Part shown: positions 2,318-5,073 of the stretch, piece by piece | How the letters are laid out: every line of letters starts with the position of its first letter | Position numbering within the stretch: the first letter of the stretch is position 1 | Origin: Planctomycetaceae bacterium | GTDB taxonomy: Bacteria > Planctomycetota > Phycisphaerae > Phycisphaerales > SM1A02 | Direction of reading: 5' to 3' | NCBI GenBank assembly: GCA_947474065.1 | Contig: CANJHD010000004.1 | Coordinates: 1-64,000, forward strand | Length of the DNA: 64,000 nt | Made by a program: the position numbers and the translations under genes | The notes under the pieces: model-generated | Database searches by the model: none | What the model was told of the DNA's origin: nothing | Seen by the model: the letters and a program-made list of their open reading frames with translations, nothing else

Positions 2318-3946
2318 TCAGCTCATGGGATCTTCGTTACCGATGCAAATTGCCAATAGATCTGCACGCGAAATTGGCTTCAGATAGAAACCTTCGCAGC
2401 CAGCGCTGAGAGCGCGATCACGCTCGATGCTCAGCGCCGCCGCAGTGAGTGCAACAATCCGGCCACGGAAACCGCGAGCGCGGATGCGCGTCGTTGCCTC
2501 AATCCCGTCAATGCCAGGCATCTGCACATCCATAATGATCAAGTCCGGGCAGTACGTGCCATCAAACCGCGCCACCGCGCTCAGACCATCCGATGCGATA
2601 TCGACGTGCGCGCCTGCAAGTGACATCAGCGCGGACAGAATTCTCTGCGAATCAATACTGTCTTCTACCAACAACACGGTGCGACCACTGAGCGGCCCGT
2701 CTTCGCCGCGAGGCGCCATTGCGGATGGCGCGGCAGCAGCGAAAACCAGAGCCGGCTGCGCAATATCCGACTCAAAGATGAACGTGAACACGCTGCCTCG
2801 TCCCACTTCGCTCGCTACCTCAATGCGACCGCCGAGAAGCACCGCTAGCCTGCGGCTGATTGCCAACCCAAGGCCAGTACCACCGTGTCGTCGTGTGTAA
2901 CTCGAATCAAACTGCGAGAACGGCTCAAAGAGTTTCGGCAGCGTCTCCTCTGAAATGCCGCAGCCAGTGTCATGCACTGCGATCCGCGTTTCCATACGCG
3001 AGCCAGTTCGTGTGGACGAAACGACAACACGCACCGATCCTTGATCCGTAAACTTCACCGCGTTGCCAACAATGTTCAGCAAGACTTGCCGAATGCGAAC
3101 TGGATCGCTGCAGATCGGCACCCCGGACGCATCGCCTTCCACAACTCGAGTTAGGGTAATACCCTGCGAGACAGCGCGCATTTGCAGCAGTTGCACAACA
3201 TCACGCACGATGTCCGCAACCACCACCTCGGAAATGTCCATTTCGAATCGACCCGACTCAATCTTGGAGAGGTCGAGGATGTCATTGATGATTGCCAAGA
3301 GATGATCGCCATTGCGACGAATAGTCTCAATGTAATCCGCACGCTCAACGGGGTCTGCGCCGTCATCACGAAGCAACTCCGCATAACCAAGAATCGCGGT
3401 CATCGGTGTACGGATTTCATGGGAGATGTTCGCTAGGAAGTTCGACTTTGTCTTACTCGCTTCCTCCGCGCGCACGCGCAACCCGCGCTCGCTGCGCTCC
3501 TTCTCACTCAACTTATTCACCATGCGCTCAAAGTCTTGAAGTTGTGCATTCATTGCCTCAATGACCATCGCGTAGTCCGCACTGCCATCATGGGGCGCAA
3601 AGTCACGAATGCCCAGCGGCCAGGCCCATATAGACGTGTTATCCACGATCCGAGGCGATCCAACAAAGACGAGTTCGCCAGTGGGCAGCGCCACAAACTG
3701 ACCGCGCATCTGTCGCGGCGTGCCACGAATTCCAATCAGCACCAATTCGCCGATGCCCTCGCGAAGTGCCGTCCGTGATTCCATCCGCGGCCGCAACACC
3801 TCAAACACATCAAAGAACTGTGATCCGACACATTCAGGAAGGACCTTCGCCATACTTGGACCGACGCCACACACCACACCCTTCCCATCGATAACGATGT
3901 TGAATGGGAACAGCGTGGCGAGCAGCATTTGTGTCTCTGCGTTCAA
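2318..3946 (-). CDS. Hybrid histidine kinase with HNOBA sensor domain and receiver
   Basis: A 542-residue soluble hybrid kinase. Residues 10-125 match the HNOBA domain, the PAS-like partner of H-NOX in animal soluble guanylate cyclase: FPFNIVIDGKGVV, a VLPECVGSQFFDVFEVLRP stretch and RGQFVALPTGELVFVGSP. A coiled-coil signalling helix follows (about 125-165). The kinase core has SHEIRTP (phospho-acceptor H176), the N box around N295, DTGCG (326-330) and GGTGLG (355-360). The C-terminal receiver (422-540) has acidic residues ED 428-429, acceptor D473 in IMDVQMPG, and a conserved Lys in YLKP. No membrane segment is seen. The TTG start at 3946 overlaps the stop of the second H-NOX gene by 4 bp (TTGA), so the two are translationally coupled; ATG 3928 is an alternative. 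It probably receives the NO signal from the two H-NOX proteins and feeds a phosphorelay whose output is not nearby. Confidence 0.93.
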   Translation of the reverse strand: MNAETQMLLATLFPFNIVIDGKGVVCGVGPSMAKVLPECVGSQFFDVFEVLRPRMESRTALREGIGELVLIGIRGTPRQMRGQFVALPTGELVFVGSPRIVDNTSIWAWPLGIRDFAPHDGSADYAMVIEAMNAQLQDFERMVNKLSEKERSERGLRVRAEEASKTKSNFLANISHEIRTPMTAILGYAELLRDDGADPVERADYIETIRRNGDHLLAIINDILDLSKIESGRFEMDISEVVVADIVRDVVQLLQMRAVSQGITLTRVVEGDASGVPICSDPVRIRQVLLNIVGNAVKFTDQGSVRVVVSSTRTGSRMETRIAVHDTGCGISEETLPKLFEPFSQFDSSYTRRHGGTGLGLAISRRLAVLLGGRIEVASEVGRGSVFTFIFESDIAQPALVFAAAAPSAMAPRGEDGPLSGRTVLLVEDSIDSQRILSALMSLAGAHVDIASDGLSAVARFDGTYCPDLIIMDVQMPGIDGIEATTRIRARGFRGRIVALTAAALSIERDRALSAGCEGFYLKPISRADLLAICIGNEDPMS

Positions 3947-4506
3947 AGCGGAGCAGCCTCTTCAGGAAATTCCACAAGGAAGACATCGTGTTCAGCACCG
4001 CTCTGGCGATCTTCAACTTGCGTCACCGCTATTGCCTCGCCATACATCGCTCCGAGCCCTTCAAGAACTCCGTGCACGAACGGAGCGAGTCCTGATCGGG
4101 CCGAGATGTATTGCACTCGCATGCCCCCACCGACCAACGTTTCGGTGCGAAACTGCGGCATGTTCACCCCAGGGAATGTGAGCGCAATGCGTGCATGCAA
4201 CGCATCAAGAGCTGGCAGCATTTCTCGCACCGTGGCACCCATGGAATGCATCACCTTCCCCCATGGCTGGCGCTCTGCGTAGACCATCCAAAAGTGTCCA
4301 AATGCGTGCAGTGCTTCCGGAAGCGTGATGCCAAGACGGCGCGCAACCGCGGCAGCCAGATCGAATGTCGTCTGGTCCGGATACGCGCGCATGATGACGA
4401 ACACTGGCTCGCTGACGCCGGCGTCTGCGCAGATGGCTGCCCACGTCTCTTCGCCGTAGCGCTCCACCACCATCTCCTGAAGTGCGTGATTGACCATCCC
4501 GAGCAT
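3943..4506 (-). CDS. H-NOX haem domain protein (second of a tandem pair)
   Basis: A 187-residue stand-alone H-NOX protein, the length typical of bacterial members. It starts MLGMVNHAL, equivalent to the conserved MYGxVN start. The proximal haem ligand is H104 in LDALHARI. The haem-propionate motif Y-x-S-x-R is Y133, S135 and R137, followed by SGLAPFV, where I see no tyrosine. In this family a distal tyrosine supports O2 binding, so its absence favours NO selectivity (inference). The ATG at 4506 has a GGAG ribosome site overlapping the stop of the first H-NOX gene, 6 bp upstream. The stop overlaps the kinase start. It is clearly paralogous to its neighbour, with matching motif positions but divergent sequence. 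Confidence 0.94.
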   Translation of the reverse strand: MLGMVNHALQEMVVERYGEETWAAICADAGVSEPVFVIMRAYPDQTTFDLAAAVARRLGITLPEALHAFGHFWMVYAERQPWGKVMHSMGATVREMLPALDALHARIALTFPGVNMPQFRTETLVGGGMRVQYISARSGLAPFVHGVLEGLGAMYGEAIAVTQVEDRQSGAEHDVFLVEFPEEAAPL

Positions 4507-4512
4507 GAATAT

Positions 4513-5073
4513 CTACTCCGCTTGAAGTGCAGGACGAGTGCGAACCATAAATGCGTCACACGGAGCACCCGCATCCTTTGCGGCAATCTGCTCTATGTCC
4601 ACATGCTCGCCGTACATGTTTCCAATTCCTTGAACAAGTCCAAGGACGAAGGGCGCGAGACCGGGACGGTGCGAACGGTACTCCAACAACAACGCGCCAG
4701 CGCGTGGCTCAACACGGAAGGAGGGCGGCGCAAGATCCGGAAAGCTCACAGCAATCCGTGTGTGCATTGAGTCGAGCGCCGCGAGAAGCTCATAGGTATT
4801 TTTCCCGGACGCCTGCATGAGCTTGCCCCACGGCCCCTTGCCGGCGAACTCGATCCAATAAATCCCAAAGGCGTGCAGCACATCCGCAATAGGCATCTTC
4901 ATATGCTCAGCCGCGGCAGTAGCCAGTGCATAAGTCACCGCGTCCGGGTATTGCTTCATCATCACGAACGCGGGATCTTCGACGCCTGCACGCTCCTTGA
5001 TCAACTCCCATTGTGGCGCCCCGAATTTTTCCGTGATCATTGCCTCAATTGCCTGATTGACCATTCCGTACAT
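4513..5073 (-). CDS. H-NOX haem domain protein (first of a tandem pair)
   Basis: A 186-residue H-NOX protein beginning MYGMVNQAIE, the canonical start. An AGGAGA ribosome site (5079-5084) lies 5 bases before ATG 5073, which decides this start over an upstream in-frame codon. The proximal haem ligand is H104 in LDSMHTRI, followed by PSFRV. The Y-x-S-x-R motif is Y132, S134 and R136. PGLAPFV follows with no distal tyrosine, consistent with an NO-selective pocket (inference). It is the promoter-proximal gene of a three-gene operon: H-NOX, H-NOX, HNOBA kinase. The family is known to regulate partner kinases and cyclases in trans through haem-iron/His bond breakage on NO binding. Both tandem copies keep the haem ligand, unlike the alpha subunit of animal guanylate cyclase, which has lost it. 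Confidence 0.95.
   Translation of the reverse strand: MYGMVNQAIEAMITEKFGAPQWELIKERAGVEDPAFVMMKQYPDAVTYALATAAAEHMKMPIADVLHAFGIYWIEFAGKGPWGKLMQASGKNTYELLAALDSMHTRIAVSFPDLAPPSFRVEPRAGALLLEYRSHRPGLAPFVLGLVQGIGNMYGEHVDIEQIAAKDAGAPCDAFMVRTRPALQAE

Follow-up and report, generated by a model that had tools for sequence, protein, structure and literature searches.

The window, a stretch of 64,000 nucleotides from a freshwater Phycisphaerales bacterium (Planctomycetota), contains three closely packed genes on the minus strand, which read in the order H-NOX, H-NOX, HNOBA kinase. HNOX1 (4513-5073) encodes a stand-alone H-NOX (haem NO/O2-binding) protein of 186 aa, assigned by Pfam HNOB, its residues and its phylogeny. 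HNOX2 (3943-4506) encodes a second H-NOX protein of 187 aa, a diverged paralog assigned by Pfam HNOB and an AlphaFold2 (AF2) model. The third gene (2318-3946) starts with TTG and encodes an HNOBA hybrid histidine kinase of 542 aa, composed of the Pfam domains HNOBA, HisKA, HATPase_c and Response_reg. HNOX1 and HNOX2 are separated by 6 bases, and a GGAG ribosome-binding-like site overlaps the HNOX1 stop. The initial annotation of this DNA had described the second H-NOX gene as coupled to the kinase by a TTGA overlap. This coupling is confirmed, the 4 bp consisting of the HNOX2 stop and the TTG start of the kinase, and the 4-bp overlap is kept in relatives, as TTGA in L057 and as GTGA in L058-L060. 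The flanking genes encode a SerB/SerA-like protein, a glyoxalase, an exchanger and an ABC transporter, and are common to relatives only as general synteny. The surroundings of the operon were checked for a conserved output gene, and no response regulator lies beside it in the window. The gene next to the operon at 1287-2252 of the window, present in just two close relatives among the loci compared, contains a cysteine region that weakly resembles DnaJ CXXCXGXG (E 4e-4, below the cut-off).

Both H-NOX proteins exceed the cut-off of Pfam HNOB (PF07700) at 25.5 bits, HNOX1 with 153.9 bits (E 4.6e-45) and HNOX2 with 144.9 bits (E 2.6e-42). The proximal haem ligand His104 and Pro117 are present in both, as is the propionate-binding YxSxR motif, with Y/S/R at 132/134/136 (133/135/137 in the numbering of HNOX2 itself). 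The earlier description of two adjoining H-NOX genes that retain His104 and YxSxR is therefore accurate, including its coordinates. The same residues occur in all pairs compared, with the one exception of a Ser to Thr exchange in HNOX1 of L067. By sequence, HNOX1 and HNOX2 are predicted to be haem-competent and would thus be expected to bind haem. The fold was assessed on the HNOX2 model alone, HNOX1 being a 41% identical sequence. The model (pLDDT 90.8) has the H-NOX fold, as indicated by its match to the Nostoc H-NOX 2o09 (TM 0.92, rmsd 1.3 Å over 181 residues, VIA Z 26.9), and matches the H-NOX of the beta subunit of soluble guanylate cyclase (sGC) with a Z of ~25.

The role of Tyr140 in O2-binding H-NOX has been described for the Tt protein (PMC7356049). 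Both HNOX1 and HNOX2 have Phe142 at the position of this distal Tyr140 and hence lack the mark of the O2-binding Tt/Cs type. O2 sensing is disfavoured by the absence of the distal Tyr, and NO/CO sensing is expected, since both proteins combine this absence with a Trp73 as in Nostoc H-NOX. His71 and His144, which are specific to HNOX2, were weighed as a possible new distal ligand and discarded. His144 varies (H/T/K/Q/L), and both residues probably lie on the other helix face, because they are two residues from Trp73 and Phe142, which are expected to face the pocket.

An HNOBA domain had been proposed at residues 10-125 of the kinase, a proposal that was to fall if the profile did not match there. 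The kinase reaches 46.8 bits against Pfam HNOBA (E 3.3e-12, cut-off 23.4), and the profile matches in two stretches, ~residues 8-56 (3779-3925) and 79-158 (3473-3712). The sensor and most of the signalling helix together occupy 3473-3925 (residues ~8-158). For residues 1-150, the best sequence matches in the PDB are the PAS domains of the Nostoc punctiforme kinase, 2p08 and 2p04 (E 2e-6), followed by human sGC beta1 (E 0.0014). An AlphaFold2 model of the sensor built from 16 relatives (pLDDT 89, pTM 0.73) has only sGC PAS or Nostoc kinase PAS domains among its 23 best structural matches (E 1e-8 to 1e-6), with other PAS proteins clearly behind at E 1e-3 and worse. Profile, sequence and model matches all identify the sensor as an HNOBA domain of the guanylate cyclase type, and it is homologous to the sGC PAS/HNOBA domain.

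In the model, a long signalling helix spans residues 121-164. The HisKA dimerisation and phosphoacceptor domain (3251-3448, E 5.8e-26) contains His176 within SHEIRTP, the HATPase_c catalytic domain (2771-3106, E 1.2e-29) has its N, G1, F and G2 boxes, and the C-terminal receiver domain (2351-2677, Response_reg, E 1.2e-20) carries the phosphoacceptor Asp473 within IIMDVQMP. All three domains are over their cut-offs, and phosphoacceptors and ATPase boxes are intact.

An HNOBA-type PAS domain on a bacterial kinase is not new, because the Nostoc punctiforme domain has already been solved (2p04, 2p08); it is regarded as a homologue of the sGC PAS domain and has served as a model for it (PMC8196705). 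The sensor studied here is homologous to that domain (E 2e-6, TMt ~0.8) and also sits on a histidine kinase, but belongs to a planctomycete and thus to another phylum. The parallel with sGC that had been drawn for this operon stands at the level of domains and does not extend further. In sGC, the H-NOX domain is fused to HNOBA, and the H-NOX of the alpha subunit is without haem. The planctomycete proteins share with sGC alpha1/beta1 the H-NOX fold, the haem residues, and an HNOBA/PAS domain followed by a signalling helix. In contrast, the H-NOX proteins come from separate genes, each with a stop and a start of its own, the haem ligand is present in both, so that both appear haem-competent from their residues, and the output is a phosphorelay of histidine kinase and receiver instead of a C-terminal class III cyclase domain. 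Having neither cyclase nor fusion, the operon is not an sGC.

The H-NOX-kinase systems of Shewanella and Vibrio and the Legionella proteins Hnox1 and Hnox2 resemble the operon in that a stand-alone H-NOX has a kinase or cyclase as its target in trans (PMC8846402, PMC8738867). However, the Shewanella and Vibrio systems have one H-NOX per partner as described in these papers, and the two Legionella proteins lie with different partners. The closest solved H-NOX to both HNOX1 and HNOX2 is that of Nostoc sp. PCC 7120 (Alr2278, E ~1e-40), from which HNOX2 differs by Leu2 instead of Tyr2 and by Val at the Leu146 position.

Relatives with up to 97% (HNOX1) and 96% (HNOX2) identity were found in metagenome assemblies, nearly all labelled Planctomycetota and several Phycisphaerales; one is labelled Chitinophaga, evidently wrongly. 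This contig scan ran on an alignment of closer sequences and is biased to close relatives, and the genome search covers the rest. In the Planctomycetota sample, H-NOX is present in 42 of 392 genomes and HNOBA in 22, and in nearly all of these 22 the HNOBA genes adjoin H-NOX. The combination of H-NOX and HNOBA kinase is an already known kind of module and is common in Planctomycetota. Within the family of the window, 97 of 181 genomes contain H-NOX. The initial annotation proposed to search genomes for the gene order H-NOX, H-NOX, HNOBA kinase. Adjacent H-NOX pairs are present in 11/11 H-NOX-positive members of the window's genus, and six genomes from other genera also have one (g2: G465, G466; g5: G495, G500; g269: G408; g273: G433), the kinase gene coming first in g273. 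No pair was found in the sampled Planctomycetota outside this family. The class of a gammaproteobacterial relative was also searched, and its 26 H-NOX-positive genomes among 369 include no adjacent pair. Two gammaproteobacterial genomes have two H-NOX genes ~3 kb apart among hybrid kinases, and each of these H-NOX, where placeable, adjoins its own kinase. A literature search, run without most subscription journals, found no paper treating H-NOX together with planctomycetes, and H-NOX signalling in this phylum seems undescribed. At L106:4426-8026, the order is kinase, H-NOX, H-NOX, and the kinase-adjacent copy carries Asp2 and Val146.

In a maximum-likelihood tree, one clade (100/100) unites every HNOX2 protein of the genus, and HNOX1 groups with the lone H-NOX proteins from sister genera (L040, L070, L063, L065, L138). 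HNOX1 is most likely the ancestral-type copy and the ortholog of these single proteins. The remaining pairs fall in three other regions of the tree, giving four separate pair lineages in the family. In the kinase tree, kinases of paired and single loci separate (91/89), the root being unsure. The scatter of pairs over the tree and the separation of the kinases suggest that pairs arose about four times, though the sister genera could conceivably have lost HNOX2 instead. Between species, HNOX1 and HNOX2 both show pairwise dN/dS values of 0.02-0.15 in the comparisons with unsaturated or estimable synonymous sites. Such values indicate purifying selection, and thus neither copy is decaying. Leu2, Gln10, Glu11, Gln80, Val114 and Met116 are fixed in the HNOX2 clade (10/10).

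The divergence within pairs was screened on the 34 columns shared by at least 90% of 36 unpaired H-NOX. Tyr2 and Leu146 are the only ones at which the kinase-adjacent copy departs from this consensus in three of the four lineages, Tyr2 being replaced by Leu, His and Asp, and Leu146 by Val/Ala, Met and Val. The fourth lineage has Met146 in the other copy and not in the kinase-adjacent one, and Leu146 is changed in exactly one copy in 4/4 pair lineages. At the locus itself, HNOX1 has Tyr2 and Leu146 like unpaired H-NOX, and HNOX2 has Leu and Val. A wider unpaired set retains Tyr2 in 61/61 and Leu146 in 60/61 H-NOX; the H-NOX on contig C15 of the same genome, which is single today but belongs to a second-copy clade, was counted among the pairs. 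By the conserved G-x-x-x-G spacing in the alignment, position 146 corresponds to Leu144 of Tt H-NOX, a residue changed in the mutant 3iqb. Leu144 lies in the distal haem pocket, and Leu146 is predicted to do so as well. Tyr2 is named, together with the YxSxR residues, as a contact of activators that mimic haem in human and Nostoc H-NOX (PMC6225106). The deviating copies account for ~16% of tree length, and the chance per column is ~0.004 for Tyr2 and ~0.003 for Leu146, or ~0.1 each after correction for 34 columns, for a pattern noticed post hoc, after looking at the data. Two changed columns together, both near the haem, are suggestive and not proof. The arrangement of two sensors, one with a changed haem pocket, seems to have evolved repeatedly in the family and is apparently undescribed.

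With moderate confidence, the operon is read as an NO-responsive two-component module, in which HNOX1 is the ancestral sensor and HNOX2 a duplicate with a different ligand response. HNOX1 and HNOX2 would each bind ferrous haem via His104, and distal pockets without a hydrogen-bonding Tyr should favour NO (and CO) over O2. NO binding would then alter the haem and the shape of the domain. Stand-alone H-NOX proteins target kinases or cyclases in trans (PMC8196705, PMC8846402), and HNOX1 and HNOX2 may likewise work in trans by docking on the soluble hybrid kinase at its HNOBA/PAS sensor, where the homology to sGC suggests that H-NOX meets an HNOBA dimer. The signalling helix would relay the change to HisKA/HATPase autophosphorylation at His176, the sign of this control being presumptive. 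Phosphate could pass from His176 to Asp473 of the fused receiver, then to a separate Hpt protein and on to response regulators; two Hpt domains are present in the genome. With its changed haem pocket, HNOX2 would have been retained for another kind of ligand response and may differ in affinity, kinetics or redox behaviour, giving the two proteins distinct sensitivities. A single kinase would thereby integrate two haem sensors. Two distinct sensors are favoured because the pair is conserved, arose several times, is under purifying selection in both members and has one member with a changed predicted haem-pocket residue. The H-NOX heterodimer and the two-threshold sensing put forward in the initial annotation are likewise presumptive, as is the stoichiometry of H-NOX on HNOBA, and as a counterpoint HNOX2 could act on another partner.

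A bolder form of this reading is only tentatively put forward. It holds that a haem receptor with dual input evolved repeatedly in Phycisphaerales. Two H-NOX with diverged pockets would jointly control one HNOBA kinase dimer as a heteromeric NO receptor, which would give a two-step response and be convergent with the alpha/beta asymmetry of sGC. A related proposal, which we consider doubtful, assigns HNOX1 and HNOX2 to one protomer each of the HNOBA dimer, with both required, one acting as the NO switch and the other in a structural or modulatory role, again as a convergent analogue of the sGC asymmetry. Such an architecture is known from sGC, where the PAS dimer at the centre has an H-NOX on either side (PMC8196705). 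The HNOBA domain of the kinase is homologous to the sGC PAS domain, its Nostoc relative 2p04 is described as dimerised, and pairs arose repeatedly, each time with one altered member. However, a single H-NOX suffices for the sister genera and for most HNOBA kinases, and the haem ligand is kept in both copies, unlike in sGC alpha.

Tandem duplication is common in evolution, and the canonical haem residues in both copies would fit a second gene that merely supplies more H-NOX, has no distinct property and differs by drift. This explanation is unlikely in view of the 41% identity of the copies, the residues fixed in 10/10 HNOX2, the purifying selection on both copies and the change of the same two positions in separate lineages. 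The loss of Tyr2, one of the residues touching haem-mimicking activators (PMC6225106), and the haem-free oxidative signalling described in a Vibrio cholerae H-NOX (PMC7108781) would fit an HNOX2 that is a redox or haem-status sensor or a decoy, no longer an NO sensor, or that serves another kinase. This reading is very improbable, as no HNOX2 has lost His104, YxSxR or Pro117, and HNOX2 is the very gene that overlaps this kinase.

The preferred reading of two distinct haem sensors on one kinase bears on sGC itself. The communication between H-NOX and HNOBA is central to sGC activation, and the evidence on it comes mostly from the fused eukaryotic enzyme. Separable, small and soluble bacterial H-NOX and HNOBA parts would permit direct measurement of the contact. 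The repeated pairs with one changed predicted haem-pocket position would form a natural series for the question of how two gas thresholds on a single kinase are tuned in evolution. What merits further work is the pair itself, recurrent and conserved, with one member altered at a predicted haem-pocket position.

The same genome encodes a third H-NOX on contig C15 (L043:5709-9405), in which Tyr2 is replaced by His and position 146 is Met. It is followed by an HNOBA-PAS-HisKA-HATPase-receiver kinase and an overlapping receiver-HD_5 (HD-GYP-type) protein. The latter suggests a second complete H-NOX module with c-di-GMP hydrolysis as its likely output. In the tree, the C15 H-NOX sits among the second copies of the g5/g269 pairs, which implies either the loss of one pair member or the transfer of just one. 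Copper nitrite reductase is not over its cut-off in this incomplete genome, and an internal NO source is thus not evident. A search of viral contigs returned no relative of HNOX1 or of the kinase.

Further arrangements of these domains were observed at other loci. HNOBA is found on HWE-type histidine kinases beside single H-NOX genes (L127:5189-6223, L128:3067-4614, L134:5883-7400). At L041:4905-6099 (G360), H-NOX lies in two frames beside a truncated HNOBA kinase, which represents a decayed locus or an assembly error. An H-NOX gene at L046:2842-5124 adjoins one for an HNOBA-SpoIIE-HATPase_c_2 protein, in which a PP2C-type phosphatase and an anti-sigma-like kinase domain replace the histidine kinase as partners of HNOBA. 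In a 12-Mb planctomycete, an open frame of 874 residues (L116:4304-6925) combines H-NOX with a Ser/Thr protein kinase domain.
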